From: Thioalkalivibrio sulfidiphilus HL-EbGr7
GTDB lineage: Bacteria > Pseudomonadota > Gammaproteobacteria > Ectothiorhodospirales > Ectothiorhodospiraceae
Reading direction: 5' to 3'
Assembly (NCBI RefSeq): GCF_000021985.1
Contig: NC_011901.1
Coordinates: 1,054,001-1,118,000 of the forward strand
Length of the DNA stretch: 64,000 nucleotides
Part shown: positions 1 through 60,069 of the stretch, piece after piece
Numbering within the stretch: position 1 is the stretch's first letter
How the letters are laid out: each line of letters begins with the position of its first letter
Notes under the pieces: generated by a model
Databases searched by the model: none
Told to the model about the DNA's origin: nothing
Seen by the model: the letters and a program-made list of their open reading frames with translations, nothing else
Position numbers and translations under genes: made by a program

Positions 1-553
1 TTTCGGCGTGAAGCGCAACATCCTGCGCATGCTGGTGGATCGCGGCTGCCAGGTCACCGTGGTGCCCGCCCAGACCCCCGCCGCCCAGGTGCTTGCCATG
101 CAGCCCGATGGCGTGTTCCTGTCCAACGGCCCCGGCGATCCGGAGCCCTGCGATTACGCCATCTCCGCCATCCGCGAGATCGTCGACACCGGCATCCCCA
201 CCTACGGTATCTGCCTGGGCCACCAGCTGCTGGGCCTGGCCAGCGGCGCGCGTACGGTGAAGATGAAGTTCGGTCATCACGGTGCCAACCACCCGGTGCA
301 GGATCTGGACAGCAAGCGGGTGATGATCTCCAGCCAGAACCACGGTTTCGCCGTGGACGAGAACACCCTGCCCGGTAACGTGAAGGCCACGCACCGCTCT
401 CTGTTCGACGGCACCCTGCAGGGCATCGCCCGCACCGACCGTCCGGCCTTCAGCTTCCAGGGTCACCCCGAGGCGAGCCCCGGCCCCCACGACGTGGCGC
501 CCTTGTTCGACCGTTTCATCGAGTTGATGAAACCGCAGGGAGTCCGCAAATAA
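1..553 (+). CDS. carA: Carbamoyl-phosphate synthase small subunit, 5'-truncated by the window edge
   Basis: This is the glutamine amidotransferase subunit that hydrolyses glutamine and passes ammonia to CarB for carbamoyl phosphate synthesis (arginine and pyrimidine pathways). Only the C-terminal half, about 183 residues, is visible. The frame is open to base 2, so the GTG at 8 is an internal Val codon and not a start. Class I amidotransferase features are clear: the nucleophile elbow [15 protein letters not shown] with its Cys, and the [10 protein letters not shown] segment carrying catalytic His and Glu. The last codons (GVRK, stop) lie inside the left inverted repeat of an inserted element. 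The native C-terminus was therefore probably different (see findings). carB follows after the insertion. Confidence 0.97.
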
Positions 554-990
554 ACGCGAATGGACGCAAAGAGGAAAAGGATTTCCGAACGGGTGATCGG
601 CTGCGCATTCGAGGTCAGTAATACCTTGGGGGCCGGTTTCCTGGAAAACGTTTATGAGAACGCGCTGGCAGTGGAGTTCGCGCGTGCGGGAATGGATTTT
701 GACAGGCAAGCCGTGCTGCCTGTCAGTTACAAGGGTGAGCTCATCGGTCAATACGTGGCCGATTTCGTGGTCGAGCAGCGCTTGATTGTCGAGATCAAAG
801 CGTTGTCGCGATTGGTGCTGGAGCATGAGGCTCAAGTCATGAACTACCTCAAAGCGACAGGGCTGACGGTAGGCTTGTTGTTGAATTTCGGGACTCCGCG
901 TCTGGGTGTGCGGCGCATCGTCTGGGGTCACGATGACAATCAAGCGCTTTGAGGATTTTATTTGCGTCCATTCGCGTTCATTTGCGGACT
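541..990. mobile_element. 450-bp element with 30-bp terminal inverted repeats carrying a GxxExxY gene, inserted between carA and carB
   Basis: Bases 541-570 and 961-990 are inverted copies of each other, matching at 29 of 30 positions and differing only at base 11 of the arm. The arms contain the blocks CCGCA, CGCG and ACGCA. Between them lies one small gene (560-952) whose ATG is inside the left arm. I see no target-site duplication. Joining base 540 to 991 in silico gives carA an in-frame TAA four bases before the carB ATG, which is what an uninterrupted carAB operon would look like. I see no transposase. GxxExxY proteins belong to a PD-(D/E)XK-related family of unknown role. That this is a mobile unit is inference from structure. 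Confidence 0.7.
560..952 (+). CDS. GxxExxY protein (PD-(D/E)XK nuclease-related family)
   Basis: This 130-residue protein carries the family signature GFLENVY (Gly-x-x-Glu-x-x-Tyr) near residues 26-32. A nuclease-like core follows: YVADFVVEQRLIVEIKAL, where an Asp then Glu-x-Lys resembles the D...ExK active site of PD-(D/E)XK folds. A C-terminal LLNFG segment is typical of the family. The length matches the usual 120-130 residues. The start codon and first codons come from the left inverted repeat of the surrounding element. No biochemical role is established for the family. Its position, splitting carA from carB on an inverted-repeat-bounded cassette, suggests a selfish or passenger gene and not a pyrimidine-pathway gene. 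Confidence 0.85.
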   Translation: MDAKRKRISERVIGCAFEVSNTLGAGFLENVYENALAVEFARAGMDFDRQAVLPVSYKGELIGQYVADFVVEQRLIVEIKALSRLVLEHEAQVMNYLKATGLTVGLLLNFGTPRLGVRRIVWGHDDNQAL

Positions 991-1004: not shown

Positions 1005-4222
<3,218 letters not shown>

Positions 4223-4223
<1 letters not shown>

Positions 4224-5183: not shown

Positions 5184-5832
5184 TCAAAGGCTTCCGATCC
5201 CCGTTGCACGGGGCTCGGGTTACTTTTCTTGCTTGTCCAAGAAAAGTAACCAAAAGAAGGACACCCCGATGCCGCACCCGCTATTCGCGGGTGCCCTGCG
5301 TTGCTCGGCTTCGAGGGGGTCGCCTGACAGGCCGTCCCTGGCCTGGCAGGCGACGCGCCGCATCCCTGCGGCGCCCCTTCGGGCTTAATCCCTCGAAGCC
5401 TGCGCTACTCGGTGCGGCATAAGGGGGGGGAGGCAGGTCAAAACCGCTTCGAGCAGTCTTTGGTTTTTATTGTAGGAGCCCCGACCCCGGGGCGAATGGT
5501 GGGAAATTCGCCCCGGGGTCGGGGCTCCTACGAAAGAACAACAAGCCACCCAAGGTAAAGGGGTTGCTGCCTTTGACGTCCCCCCCGTTTTTCTCGCCGA
5601 GCACGGGGGTGTTCCGGGGTAAAAGCCCGCCAGGGGCGCCGCAGGGATGCGGCAGCGTCGGCTGCCAGGCCACGGACGGCCTGTCAGCCGACCTCCCCGG
5701 AACGCCTCCGCGCGCAGGGCACCCCGCAGGGGCGAGAAACTCGGGTGTCTTTTCTTTGGTTACTTTCTTTGGACAAGCAAAGAAAGTAACCCGAGCCCCG
5801 CGAAAAGCGGGGATCGGAAGCCTTTGATTTTG
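5184..5832. mobile_element. Non-coding ~650-bp element with long imperfect inverted repeats, between yhbY and rlmE
   Basis: The two ends are inverted copies. Both contain a palindrome reading GGTTACTTTTCTTG, then CTTGTC, then the complement (about 5219-5251 and 5759-5791). Both are flanked by a short hairpin and a GGCTTCCGATCCCCG block (near 5189 and 5820). Inner segments 5318-5376 and 5635-5693 are also inverted copies with only a few mismatches. The centre holds a perfect hairpin at 5472-5531. Open frames here are short, overlap on both strands and translate repeat sequence; I see no transposase. The region fills the whole yhbY-rlmE interval, so it must also contain or carry the divergent promoters. 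A related solo end occurs at 36821-36912. Confidence 0.65.
5472..5531. repeat. Perfect 26-bp-stem hairpin (GTAGGAGC...CCCCGG family)
   Basis: Bases 5472-5497 and 5506-5531 are exact reverse complements, separated by an 8-base loop. The outer edge reads GTAGGAGCCCCGACC. Palindromes with a GTAGGAG edge and a GC-rich core are common REP-like intergenic elements in gammaproteobacteria. A degraded relative is at 51253-51306. Confidence 0.8.
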
Positions 5833-33047: not shown

Positions 33048-33194
33048 GCCGCAGAGGCGCGGAGACGCAGAGAAAAAAGATCGGACAGGATTTACATGAT
33101 TAACAGGATTCAAAAAGCGGTGTAGTGACCCTGGTGTTGAATCCCGTTAATCATGTAAATCCTGTCAAAAAGCATTTCTCCGCGCCTCTGCGGC
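33048..33194. repeat. Nested palindromic element between rbfA and truB
   Basis: The outer arms 33048-33065 and 33177-33194 are perfect 18-bp inverted repeats containing CCGCAGAGGCGCGGAGA. The inner arms 33084-33110 and 33140-33166 match at 26 of 27 positions and are built from repeated ACAGGATT/ACATGATT words. The whole folds into one stem of about 147 nt around a centre containing AAAGCGGTG. It belongs to the same family as 41981-42146. No coding capacity. Confidence 0.8.
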
Positions 33195-36820: not shown

Positions 36821-36912
36821 TCCGGCTTGCAGCCGGCTCGAGTTACTTTTCTTGCTTGTCCAAGAAAAGTAACCCGAGCCCCGGGCAACGGGGATCGGAA
36901 GCCTTTGACTTT
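36821..36912. repeat. Solo copy of the GTTACTTTTCTTG palindrome family
   Basis: The central palindrome GTTACTTTTCTTG-CTTGTC-CAAGAAAAGTAAC (36842-36873) is nearly identical to the one at 5219-5251. It is flanked by a short CCCCG...CGGGG hairpin and the same CGGAAGCCTTTGA block as the ends of the large element at 5184-5832. It lies between convergent pnp and the YheT-like gene. Confidence 0.75.
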
Positions 36913-38658: not shown

Positions 38659-38730
38659 ATTCAAGATTCAAGATTCAAGATTCAAAGGCTGGGTTTAATC
38701 CCTTTGAATTTTGAATTTTGAATCTTGAAT
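38659..38730. repeat. ATTCAAG tandem-word hairpin at a convergent junction
   Basis: The left arm is four copies of ATTCAAG/A. The right arm is four inverted copies (TTTGAAT/CTTGAAT). The loop is GGCTGGGTTTAATCC. It fills the entire space between the methyltransferase stop and the stop codon of the convergent gene. The same words recur at 59980-60069. Confidence 0.8.
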
Positions 38731-41953: not shown

Positions 41954-41980
41954 GACGGCGGTTTGGTCTTTGCTAAGGAA

Positions 41981-42146
41981 CATCTGCCGCAGAGGCGCGA
42001 AGACGCAGAGAATGTATTTTGACAGGATTGACATGATTTACAGGATTAATCGAAAAGCGGTGCAAGCGTGCTTATTCATCATGTGAATCATGTAAATCCT
42101 GTCAGATCCCTTCTTTCTCTGCGTCTCCGCGCCTCTGCGGCAGATG
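41981..42146. repeat. Nested palindromic element between alpha-E and transglutaminase genes
   Basis: The outer arms 41981-42012 and 42115-42146 match at 31 of 32 positions. The inner arms begin GACAGGATT (42021-42038 versus 42086-42103, 17 of 18). The centre contains AAAAGCGGTG, as in the copy at 33048-33194. It separates two genes of the ATP-grasp cluster, so it may break or attenuate the operon. Confidence 0.8.
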
Positions 42147-42181
42147 TCATCACTTCCGCGCCATAGAAAACCGGAGCCCCC

Positions 42182-45100: not shown

Positions 45101-45568
45101 GTGACCGGCCTCACCGAGGGCCGCTACGTGCTGGCCTGCAACGGCCGGCGTGTGCCCCTGCAGTCTACCGGCACCCACGGCGAGTACGTGGCCGGTGTAC
45201 GCTACCGGGCCTGGCAGCCGCCCTCGGCCCTGCACCCCAACATCGGCGTGCACGCACCCCTGGTGTTCGACCTGATCGACACCTGGAACGGCCGGGCCAT
45301 CGGTGGCTGCACCTACCACGTCTCCCACCCGGGCGGACGCAACTACGACGTCTTCCCGGTCAACGCCTTCGAGGCCGAGGCCCGGCGCATCACCCGCTTC
45401 TGGGACCACGGCCACACCCCCGGCACCCTGCAGCCGCCGCCGGCCCTGCGCTCCCTGGCGCAATTTCACCCCGAGGGCAGCCTTCTGGGCCCCATGGCCC
45501 CGCCCACCGAGCGGCCCGACCCGGAGTATCCCTGCACGCTGGATCTGCGTCGGCCGCCTTCGGTTTAG
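42182..45568 (+). CDS. Giant transglutaminase-like protein with DUF2126
   Basis: The 1128-residue protein has an N-terminal bacterial transglutaminase-associated beta domain (about residues 3-85). A transglutaminase/papain-like core follows, with the Cys-His-Asp triad visible at Cys180 (RIGSCRDSAW), His229 (DLHAWTEVF) and Asp245 (GLDPTSGL). The remaining 800 or so residues are DUF2126, containing GGEPTFVSIDDMEAAEWN, LPPLNFLEHYLDLV and HTGTGGGNHVTLGAATP. This architecture is known from ATP-grasp/alpha-E neighbourhoods. The core may cleave or exchange peptide or isopeptide bonds. No signal peptide, so it is cytoplasmic. Confidence 0.9.
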   Translation: MAIRVALNHRTVYRFDRRVRISPHVIRLRPAVHTRTPILSYSLDIQPKDHFINWQQDPFGNLLARVVFPEAMRELSVTVDLVAEMTVINPFDFFVEKYAETFPFGYDGILAKELIPYLEITDRGPLLMAWLEQVQRDDRGIVDFLVDLNRRLHQDIAYSVRMEPGVQTCEETLTRRIGSCRDSAWLLVQILRHLGLAARFVSGYLVQLTADEKSLDGPSGPEADFTDLHAWTEVFVPGAGWIGLDPTSGLFAGEGHIPLACTPSPLSAAPITGYTEVCEVAFEHENRVSRIHEDPRVTKPYSDDQWAAIDALGRKVDQDLLDGDVRLTMGGEPTFVSIDDMEAAEWNTRADGPHKRRLARELAGRLLRRFGPGGMFHHGQGKWYPGEPLPRWSLGCFWRKDGEPVWRDPAWLADISRDYGHGRDQALAFARELAQHLGVPESYLVPGHEDPLYYLWREGNEPVNRDPLKADLKSPAERRRLARILSQGLDEPAGYALPLTWDHEHDHWRSGVWAFRRGRLFLIPGDSPMGLRLPLDSLPWVAPAKRDEPQAPSLFEARPELGDYFGEVTRRYSERVAPEDPRADTGLQPQAPGDDPDDTRWAEVPHTSLCVEAREGRLHVFLPPLNFLEHYLDLVCAVEATATKLRLPVVLEGYEPPRDNRLERLLVTPDPGVIEVNIHPAASWEKLRDNTLALYEEARQSRLGTEKFMLDGRHTGTGGGNHVTLGAATPVDSPLLRRPDLLGSLVSFWQHHPGLSYLFSGMFIGPTSQAPRIDEARNESLYELEIALSQLPQGEEPRPWLVDRLFRNLLVDITGNTHRAEFCIDKLYSPDSPTGRLGLLELRAFEMPPHARMSLVQMLLLRSLVACFWREPYRHRLVRWGTALHDRFMLPHFVERDMAQVVEHLNRAGYPFQADWLAPFSEFRFPHYGRVSIGDIQIELRMALEPWHVLGEEVTTAGTARYVDSSVERLQVRVTGLTEGRYVLACNGRRVPLQSTGTHGEYVAGVRYRAWQPPSALHPNIGVHAPLVFDLIDTWNGRAIGGCTYHVSHPGGRNYDVFPVNAFEAEARRITRFWDHGHTPGTLQPPPALRSLAQFHPEGSLLGPMAPPTERPDPEYPCTLDLRRPPSV

Positions 45569-45715
45569 CACTGTTGTTAACGCGGAGTACGCAGAGACGC
45601 AGAGGGCGCAAAGATTCTGAAGGGTGAAGCCAAGCCATACCCGGCCGGTTTTGATCCCTATTCCGACTTTCTTTGCGTTCTCTGCGTCTCTGCGACCTTT
45701 GCGTTGACAGCAGTG
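45569..45715. repeat. Inverted repeat with ACGCAGAG-word arms after the DUF2126 gene
   Basis: The arms 45569-45614 and 45670-45715 match at about 38 of 46 positions. Each arm is a run of degenerate 8-9-nt words (AACGCGGAG, TACGCAGAG, ACGCAGAG, GGCGCAAAG). It begins at the stop of the DUF2126 gene. The words resemble the ends of the GxxExxY element at 541-990. Confidence 0.75.
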
Positions 45716-45788
45716 CCAGGCAGGACCCGATCCCGTGATGTGGTTTATCCTTCATCCATAATCCATCAGCCATCATCCTTAGTAGCGA

Positions 45789-49233: not shown

Positions 49234-49238
49234 TTGAA

Positions 49239-49300
49239 GTGGGAAGTGTGAATTGGGAAGTACGAAGTGAAATTCTTACTTCCCAATTCACACTTCCTAC
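49239..49300. repeat. GGGAAGT-word inverted repeat overlapping the Anbu stop codon
   Basis: The arms 49239-49263 and 49276-49300 match at 23 of 25 positions and consist of GGGAAGTGTGAATT-type words. The right arm contains the stop codon of the convergent Anbu gene. The structure sits between the two 3' ends and could act as a bidirectional terminator. Confidence 0.75.
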
Positions 49301-50097
49301 TTTTTCTTTTTCACCGTCTTCTTCTTTTTCGCGCTCACCTGGGTGCCGCGGCGCTTGCGGCCCTGGGCCGCCTCCCAGTCGAAACGGGGCAGTTCCCGGA
49401 AGGCCTTCTTGATGTTCTCGTCCCAGGCCCGCTTGAGGGTCAGCAGATAGTCGTCGTCGGTTTCCAGGCACAGGTAATGGTCGAAGGCCAGCTTGTCCTT
49501 CTCGTAGATCAGCACCTCGATGGGCGGGCCCACGGTGACGTTGGAGCGCATGGTGGAATCGATGGACACAAGGGCACAGCGGGTGGCGTCGCCCAGGGGG
49601 GTGGAGGGCTCGATGATGCGGTCCAGGATGGGCTTGCCGTACTTGCTCTCGCCGATCTGCAGGAAGGGCGTGTGGGATGAGGTGGTGATGAAGTTGCCCT
49701 GGGGATAGACCATGAAGATCTCCGGCGGCTCGCCTTCGATCTGCCCGCCCAGGATGAAGGTCGCATCCGGCGTGAAGCCTGCCTTGGACAGGGCGTCGGT
49801 GTGCTTTTCCTGTTCCTGGCGGTTGAGACGGCCCACGTAGGCGGCCGCCTCGGCCATGTGGGTCACGGTGTAGAGGCTCTCCTCGGCGCCGTCCTCCATG
49901 TCCCGCCGCATCTGGTTGAGTACCGCCTGGGTGGTGGCCAGGTTGCCCGCCGCCAGCATCACGAACACCCGCTCCCCCTCCACGTCGAAGGTGTGCATCT
50001 TGCTGTAGGTGCTCACCTGGTCCGCGCCGGCATTGGTGCGGGAGTCGGAGGCAAAGATCAGCCCCTCGTCCAGGGCGATGGCGACGCAGTAGGTCAT
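49297..50097 (-). CDS. Anbu, proteasome-like Ntn hydrolase
   Basis: The 266-residue protein is related to HslV and proteasome beta subunits (the Anbu or bacterial proteasome homologue group). After Met removal the N-terminal Thr of TYCVAIALDEGLIFASDSRTNAG would be the nucleophile. The ATG at 50097 is chosen for that reason, although the frame is open upstream. Further segments are FVMLAAGNLATTQ, DATFILGGQIEGEPP and ALVSIDSTMRSNVTVGPPIEV. Anbu genes are usually grouped with the alpha-E, ATP-grasp and transglutaminase genes found next door. The C-terminal tail is unusually Lys-rich (11 Lys or Arg in the last 20 residues). Confidence 0.92.
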   Translation of the reverse strand: MTYCVAIALDEGLIFASDSRTNAGADQVSTYSKMHTFDVEGERVFVMLAAGNLATTQAVLNQMRRDMEDGAEESLYTVTHMAEAAAYVGRLNRQEQEKHTDALSKAGFTPDATFILGGQIEGEPPEIFMVYPQGNFITTSSHTPFLQIGESKYGKPILDRIIEPSTPLGDATRCALVSIDSTMRSNVTVGPPIEVLIYEKDKLAFDHYLCLETDDDYLLTLKRAWDENIKKAFRELPRFDWEAAQGRKRRGTQVSAKKKKTVKKKK

Positions 50098-59979: not shown

Positions 59980-60069
59980 ATTCAAGATTCAAGATTCAAG
60001 ATTCAAAGCTGTGTGGGCGGGCATGCCCTTTGAATCTTGAATCTGCCCCTTTGAATCGCCTTGAATCAG
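59980..60069. repeat. ATTCAAG tandem-word inverted repeat
   Basis: Four direct ATTCAAG/A words (59980-60008) face inverted CTTTGAAT/CTTGAAT words (60028-60069). It is the same word family as 38659-38730. It overlaps the stop codon of the hypothetical gene at 60066. Confidence 0.75.

Follow-up and report, generated by a model that had tools for sequence, protein, structure and literature searches.

Small bacterial genes that live with families of dispersed inverted repeats have been described in the form of RAYTs, that is, repetitive extragenic palindrome (REP)-associated tyrosine transposases, and their REPINs (REP doublets forming hairpins). RAYT/REP systems are not known to produce a target duplication. 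GTAG or CGTC tags at the foot of the REP palindromes are named in the title of PMC3733652. A comparable build is found in the intervening sequence (IVS) of 23S rRNA, and for Coxiella, PMC4990558 gives a 428-nt IVS with an S23 open reading frame (ORF) and a 28-bp terminal stem that RNase III cuts in vitro. Miniature inverted-repeat transposable elements (MITEs) with their parent insertion sequences, and nucleases of the Cas4, lambda-exonuclease and RecB types, are the other systems compared here. We analysed 64,000 nt of Thioalkalivibrio sulfidiphilus HL-EbGr7 (NC_011901.1, positions 1,054,001–1,118,000 of the forward strand), hereafter the window, in which a cassette at 541–990 with a single gene of the GxxExxY family separates carA from carB. 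The genome of the window (G000) was compared with four congeners, namely the sister strain G003 and genomes G001, G002 and G004. At a probability of about 0.57, the cassette is a copy of a widespread, REPIN/RAYT-like dispersing family that uses a Cas4-like nuclease.

The cassette is delimited by a left terminal inverted repeat at 541–570 (plus strand), composed of three CGC(A/G)AATNNA-type iterons of 10 nt each, and a right one at 961–990 (minus strand). The two 30-nt arms are complementary at 29/30 positions, with 390 nt between them. A single gene, GxxExxY/PDDEXK_3 (560–952, plus strand, 130 aa), lies between the arms, and its ATG at 560 falls within the left arm. Its product matched the TIGR04256 GxxExxY profile at 143.7 bits (cut-off 35) and, as its sole Pfam match, the PF13366 PDDEXK_3 profile at 145.8 bits (cut-off 22). 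A preliminary description of this DNA had proposed that matching 30-bp ends enclose one GxxExxY gene and that the element supplies the present carA C-terminus, and both proposals were borne out by repeat, ORF and profile analysis. The 3′ part of carA (2–553, plus strand, profile match) ends in MKPQGVRK-stop, and GTC CGC AAA TAA (542–553), encoding VRK and the stop, is contributed by the left arm; carB (1005–4223, plus strand, profile match) follows. The proposed join of 540 to 991 holds arithmetically, restoring an ending of MKPQGKI-stop whose TAA precedes the carB ATG (1005) by four bases, but the true junction was not confirmed. None of 29 carA ends compared had a QGKI ending. The description of a minimal selfish nuclease element stands as far as anatomy goes, in that the cassette is discrete, carries a single gene for a nuclease-like protein and contains no transposase gene; its mobility is something that we infer from the comparison of genomes. 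In the predicted RNA fold of 531–1004, the two cassette ends pair with each other (z −6.4).

The cassette works like REPIN/RAYT and is built much like an IVS, but the features tested place it in neither group. Like a RAYT system, it combines a small gene between dispersed inverted repeats of its own type with many gene-less intergenic doublets, and it shows no target duplication (3, 5 and 8 nt were looked at). Unlike a RAYT system, it has a PD-(D/E)XK nuclease in place of the HUH (Y1) tyrosine enzyme, ends made of 8–10-nt iteron arrays, a gene placed in sense within operons and several unrelated iteron types per genome. It also carries no GTAG/CGTC foot tag, its ends being AGTCCGC... / ...GCGGACT and those of other copies TCC/GGA. 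The 23S rRNA IVS is alike in its length (~430–450 nt), its single ORF, its 28–30-bp terminal repeat that forms an RNA stem, its patchy distribution and in being regarded as selfish. It differs in lying within rRNA rather than between protein genes (carA, carB), in encoding an S23/IVP four-helix bundle rather than a nuclease and in having iterons of ~7 nt (by eye) rather than 8–10 nt. The likeness to MITEs and their parents consists of gene-less derivatives that share the ends of a gene-carrying copy, internal-deletion forms included, whereas the cassette differs from MITEs and DDE insertion sequences in its iteron ends, in the missing target duplication of 3, 5 or 8 nt and in having PDDEXK_3 as its sole gene, with no transposase. 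The Cas4, lambda-exonuclease and RecB-type nucleases offer the closest solved fold (4ic1) and the conserved PD-(D/E)XK residues, whereas the cassette protein has no four-cysteine Fe-S module and stands alone between its own repeats.

Across 61 proteins, G26, E29, D68 and N109 were invariant, and E78, K80, Q92 and Y96 were at least 90% conserved; Q92 and Y96 resemble the RecB-family motif. The AlphaFold2 model of the cassette protein had a mean predicted local distance difference test score (pLDDT) of 93, and its best PDB match was the Cas4 protein SSO0001 (4ic1; Foldseek E 6e-5, Z 9.2). Lambda-type exonucleases were also high in the Foldseek list, and sequence profiles gave weak Cas4 hints only. 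The protein has an intact PD-(D/E)XK site and, in the model, a Cas4-like fold, and nuclease activity is predicted. It has one cysteine (C15) in its 130 aa, while the Cas4 Fe-S module consists of four conserved cysteines according to PMC5704561. A defence-system identity was considered and rejected, PADLOC giving only a weak Cas4 hint (E 0.05). Nine gene pairs were tried for substitution rates, and the nonsynonymous rate (dN) was below the synonymous rate (dS) in 8/8 computable pairs. The glyQ/glyS pair of G001 and G004 had dN 0.065 and dS 1.28, and its 27-nt repeat core was identical. Judged by these rates, the GxxExxY gene is under purifying selection.

Bounding by inverted repeats is general in the genus. 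All five GxxExxY genes of G000 were bounded, as were 16/16 scored genes across the genus, one of which is without the N-terminal part of the domain. These repeats measured ~20–40 bp and consisted mostly of tandem units of ~8–10 nt whose sequence differed from gene to gene. The idea that other GxxExxY genes might share the 30-bp ends of the cassette failed as worded: genes in G000 and the genus are bounded and the ends recur gene-less, but the iteron type differs with each protein clade. In a wider set of 84 loci, inverted repeats scored 16 or more at 59, versus 3/168 mispaired controls. This set was drawn from 85 loci (one left out for a short flank), made up of 16 from the genus, 29 new ones from a survey of 299 Pseudomonadota genomes and 40 more near-full-length matches hand-picked from the same survey with short ones left out; the genus part is 16 of 18 rows, the truncated genes L043 and L047 being left out. 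Among 72 named loci (80 minus eight with short flanks; L203 and L206 coincide with L046 and L039), 51 scored at least 14, versus 0/137 windows shifted within the same loci. Record titles of those reaching 14 span about a dozen phylum-level groups, and one locus above the threshold (L221) has arms that are not iteron-like. Members of that clade have iterons in common, which made the mispaired control of this set high (50/216 at 14 or more) and leaves the shifted-window control as the informative one.

The repeats were then compared with the proteins at 120 loci scoring at least 14, from 163 attempted (loci with <30 nt of flank were left out). Repeat similarity dropped with protein distance (Mantel rho −0.49, 0/2000 permutations), and it did so too for pairs more than 35% apart in protein (rho −0.36, 0/2000 permutations). 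The commonest iteron spacing was 8 nt in clade 1, 9 nt in clades 2 and 3, and 10 nt in clades 4 and 5. Iteron sequence and spacing thus follow protein clade. Co-variation at short distance would also be expected from linked DNA alone; its persistence at large protein distance, together with the identical 27-nt core at dS 1.28, argues for constraint on the repeats.

The ends of the window cassette recur 22 times in G000 at up to 3 mismatches, compared with 0 for the reversed-pattern control. Two of these ends belong to the cassette, 16 form eight inverted pairs of 153–198 bp without a GxxExxY gene and four are single, three of the latter having a diverged partner with which they make a 76–96-bp hairpin. 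Some copies are nested, with a second inverted-repeat type placed symmetrically within the first. A scan of the window itself found 11 strong inverted repeats, 7 of them iteron-type (cassette counted), and 0 in two block shuffles. Two loci connect cassettes with hairpins: L131 in G001, the ortholog of a cassette, keeps both repeats and both gene ends with ~274 nt missing, and L127 in G002 is a cassette without 234 nt of the gene when compared with its G001 ortholog. Both are visibly gene-deleted cassettes and represent internal-deletion derivatives. Using 3.35 kb around the L046 cassette as the copy-number query, we obtained 100 matches in G000 and 107 in G003, both of which have that gene type, and 8 in G001, 4 in G002 and 5 in G004; for these three genomes, the 14 matches listed of 17 were all outside the repeat part. 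In this family, the only one counted, hairpin copy number follows the cognate gene. Among seven hand-typed G001 hairpin arms, six were nearest the ends of that genome's own clade-1 gene (22–25 of 25 positions vs. 14–17 for two other ends). Ten hand-typed G000 arms were nearest the gene ends of G000 itself in five cases, of the G003 ortholog in two and of G001 in one (L389), with two mis-anchored (L387, L391).

The carAB junction was compared across relatives. A carAB cassette in all relatives would, in the preliminary description, have spoken against insertion; among the four congeners, it was present in G003 alone. A 76–77-bp CACAGAGG hairpin occupies the junction in G001 and G004, where carA ends in LMQDR-stop and LMENR-stop, respectively. 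The contig of G002 stops near the junction, with GAGGGGT-like repeats and a best inverted-repeat score of 8 (not strong). Within the genus, no clean empty site joining 540 to 991 turned up, which had been looked to as proof of insertion; in G001 and G004, another hairpin sits there. Within the same order, carB was matched in 45/47 genomes and 30 loci were returned, 29 with a recognised carA end. The 25 of these that lie outside the genus have carA–carB spacers of 46–160 nt whose inverted-repeat scores do not exceed 10, and base-by-base alignment of the spacers fails. As the spacers of these 25 genomes contain no strong inverted repeat, insertion at carAB within the genus is likely, but its breakpoints are not fixed.

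Other sites gave a similarly varied picture. Of 12 gene-less window-type sites of G000, 7 carry the same element in the sister strain, 4 (m1, m2, m5, m8) another hairpin family and 1 (m9) a remnant. For a second hairpin family, none of the corresponding places in G004 and G002 had a strong inverted repeat (7/7 stretches, scores 8–9), and those in G001 had hairpins of other types (4/4, scores 20.5–38); sites L385 and L388 were matched by a single flank only in the more distant congeners. In G001, a cassette lies between glyQ and glyS, and G004 has the same downstream gene start. The GxxExxY gene type that matches the CACAGAGG hairpins sits before glyS in these two genomes. Farther afield, Sphingomonas parapaucimobilis has a cassette between fabD and fabG, and four other alphaproteobacterial records have junctions of 14–32 nt there. 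On these comparisons, presence, absence and replacement are common among congeners. A reading with nothing mobile, in which the gene is inherited vertically and merely adjoins a common inverted repeat or terminator, would agree with the T runs that adjoin some gene-less hairpins and with the 7/12 window-type copies common to the sister strains. It is contradicted by the survey controls, the internal-deletion derivatives and the congeners without the gene at carAB, and we regard it as scarcely credible.

Orientation was strongly biased. The upstream neighbour was codirectional with the GxxExxY gene in 96/102 callable cases and the downstream neighbour in 100/112. Where the neighbours were codirectional with each other, the gene lay in the same sense at 69/70 loci. 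Strand calls came from an ORF-based heuristic, and among the 163 loci, 61 upstream and 51 downstream neighbours were uncalled. Immediate neighbours were codirectional at the five annotated plasmid-record loci too. We infer from this position a dependence on read-through transcription; a sense-specific, RNA-linked route of insertion is a possible alternative. A host function has to be weighed here, in which a domesticated nuclease or regulator uses the dispersed hairpins as binding or processing sites that are spread or kept by selection. Sense orientation within operons, purifying selection and persistence at glyQ/glyS in G001 and G004 would suit it, but PF13366 is patchy (57/299 Pseudomonadota genomes), several unrelated iteron types occur per genome and hairpins turn over between sister strains. 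We consider a host function improbable.

Marks of insertion were sought at 98 of the 120 iteron-bounded loci, where direct flank repeats of 3, 5 or 8 nt showed no excess. In one rival explanation, a known transposase moves the cassette in trans, either a DDE enzyme or one of the RAYTs that this species is reported to have. The missing 3-, 5- or 8-nt target duplication and iteron-array ends that vary with the GxxExxY protein make this very improbable, though no search aimed at RAYT or DDE genes was made. Insertion into pre-existing palindromes was weak as a candidate, at least 9/15 outer matches occurring at 7/98 loci vs. 1.6% in controls. Spread by phages or plasmids was not supported, as a viral-contig scan (query A2) and a phage search (one protein) both returned no relatives. 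Two query proteins had relatives in 8 and 7 plasmid records, respectively, with 6 of the first 8 exceeding 400 kb, and the inverted-repeat score was at least 14 at 3/6 plasmid-record loci.

A second gene family has the same arrangement. Genes of PF05635 (23S_rRNA_IVP, a four-helix bundle) are often bounded by inverted arrays with units of ~7 nt (by eye), including AGTAGGC, GTGAGGA, TTCAAGA and others (L283–L332; in G000, L313–L315). In a first set, 21/29 loci scored at least 14 (one of 30 left out for a short flank), versus 10/87 mispaired and 0/57 shifted controls. In a second set of 20 hand-picked loci, 12 did so, versus 4/80 mispaired controls and with no shifted control. The IVP gene at L313 of G000 has TTCAAGA units, as do the hairpins at m1 and m8 in congeners. 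TTCAAGA hairpins are also seen in the window at 38659–38730 and 59992–60044, and a AAGTGGGAAGTGTGAA hairpin at 49237–49302 is similar to the repeats that flank the L315 IVP gene. The Coxiella IVS fits the IVP cassette design.

These genes bear on a different explanation, in which the hairpin is the element and is spread by host processes (replication slippage, RNA- or repair-level copying), which may also be true of 23S rRNA intervening sequences, the gene being a passenger or guardian. An iteron-binding small protein, whether nuclease or four-helix bundle, would then be kept for protecting or processing the hairpin. It would account for the same cassette design around IVP genes of unrelated fold, for different hairpin families at the same site in sister strains and for the strong RNA stem formed by the cassette ends, and the Coxiella stem cut by RNase III in vitro (PMC4990558) points the same way. 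The conserved catalytic residues and purifying selection argue instead for an enzymatic role, and the iterons track protein clade, as hairpin number tracks the gene in the family counted. We judge this explanation rather unlikely, though a good deal less so than a host function.

Several results weigh against a dispersing cassette family that uses its nuclease. No movement was seen, nor any base-exact empty/filled pair among the compared sites. None of the 12 gene-less window-type sites was cleanly empty in G003, and with 4/12 swapped, turnover resembles replacement more than it does simple insertion. IVP genes share the architecture without a nuclease, so the moving may not be done by the nuclease. 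In the surveys, 25/84 loci were under score 16 and 21/72 named loci under score 14. The seventh G001 arm (L119) is one position nearer the ends of another genome, the L389 arm of G000 is nearest the ends of another genome as well, and CACAGAGG hairpins occur in G000, yet no G000 gene has such ends. Co-occurrence of pattern and gene is likewise mixed, and its counts take in the cassettes' own ends. The gene was found in 33/45 genomes with the 9-nt pattern vs. 24/254 without it, leaving 12/45 with the pattern and no PF13366 gene; within family f33, the figures were 32/39 vs. 13/35 (p 1e-4), and outside f33 the association was not significant. For the 10-nt pattern, the gene was found in 24/32 vs. 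33/267 genomes, a strong association overall, but within f33 p was only 0.056. Reversed-pattern controls over the 299 genomes matched ~10 genomes (1–3 times each) in one pattern scan and two in the other.

If the cassette disperses by means of its nuclease, the protein would bind its own iterons and nick or cut the palindrome when this is extruded or single-stranded. Host repair or replication would then copy the cassette, or a gene-deleted hairpin, to a new site, which may often lie directly behind a stop codon. The gene would apparently be expressed by read-through from the host operon, and the paired ends would also fold into a long stem in the RNA, like those of the 23S rRNA intervening sequences. 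A broader and more tentative proposal, which we rate below even odds, is that GxxExxY cassettes and their hairpins form a separate class of mobile DNA, driven by a lone Cas4-like nuclease that recognises its own iteron palindromes without transposase, integrase or reverse transcriptase. Intervening sequences, with their four-helix bundle and ~7-nt iterons, would then make up the other branch of a single superclass of iteron-hairpin cassettes, whose members compete for the same intergenic sites.

Should the nuclease prove to be the mover, the cassette would be a class of its own. A protein family that has a name but no function gains a testable role as the single gene of a widespread repeat-bounded cassette, and the iteron dialects make protein–DNA specificity testable by clade swaps. 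Dispersal by the nuclease, if true, would account for the abundance of hairpins between genes in genomes of this kind (seven in the 64-kb window), provide a nuclease-based counterpart to REPIN/RAYT and make the puzzling 23S rRNA intervening sequences part of a broader class. No description of GxxExxY cassettes was found by titles and abstract starts, mostly outside subscription journals and preprints, and an earlier description is possible. For PDDEXK_3, no paper was found in the literature searched, and the literature matches to six iteron strings were unrelated by title and abstract start.

Further repeats were located in the window. A gene-less ACAGGAT-type hairpin at 33084–33166 has the iteron type of the ends of GxxExxY gene L012 of G000. 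The inverted-repeat scan also gave two more gene-less hairpins, one of CGCAGAGGCGCGAAG type at 41980–42147 and one of ACGCAGAG type at 45568–45716, the latter with an outer palindrome. Another inverted-repeat type (GGGTTACTTTTCTT...CAAG), non-iteron in form, was seen at 5209–5266 / 5743–5800 and at 36835–36880. Elsewhere in the same genome, matches to TCTC-type iteron hairpins were clustered at ~287–316 kb of G000:C1.
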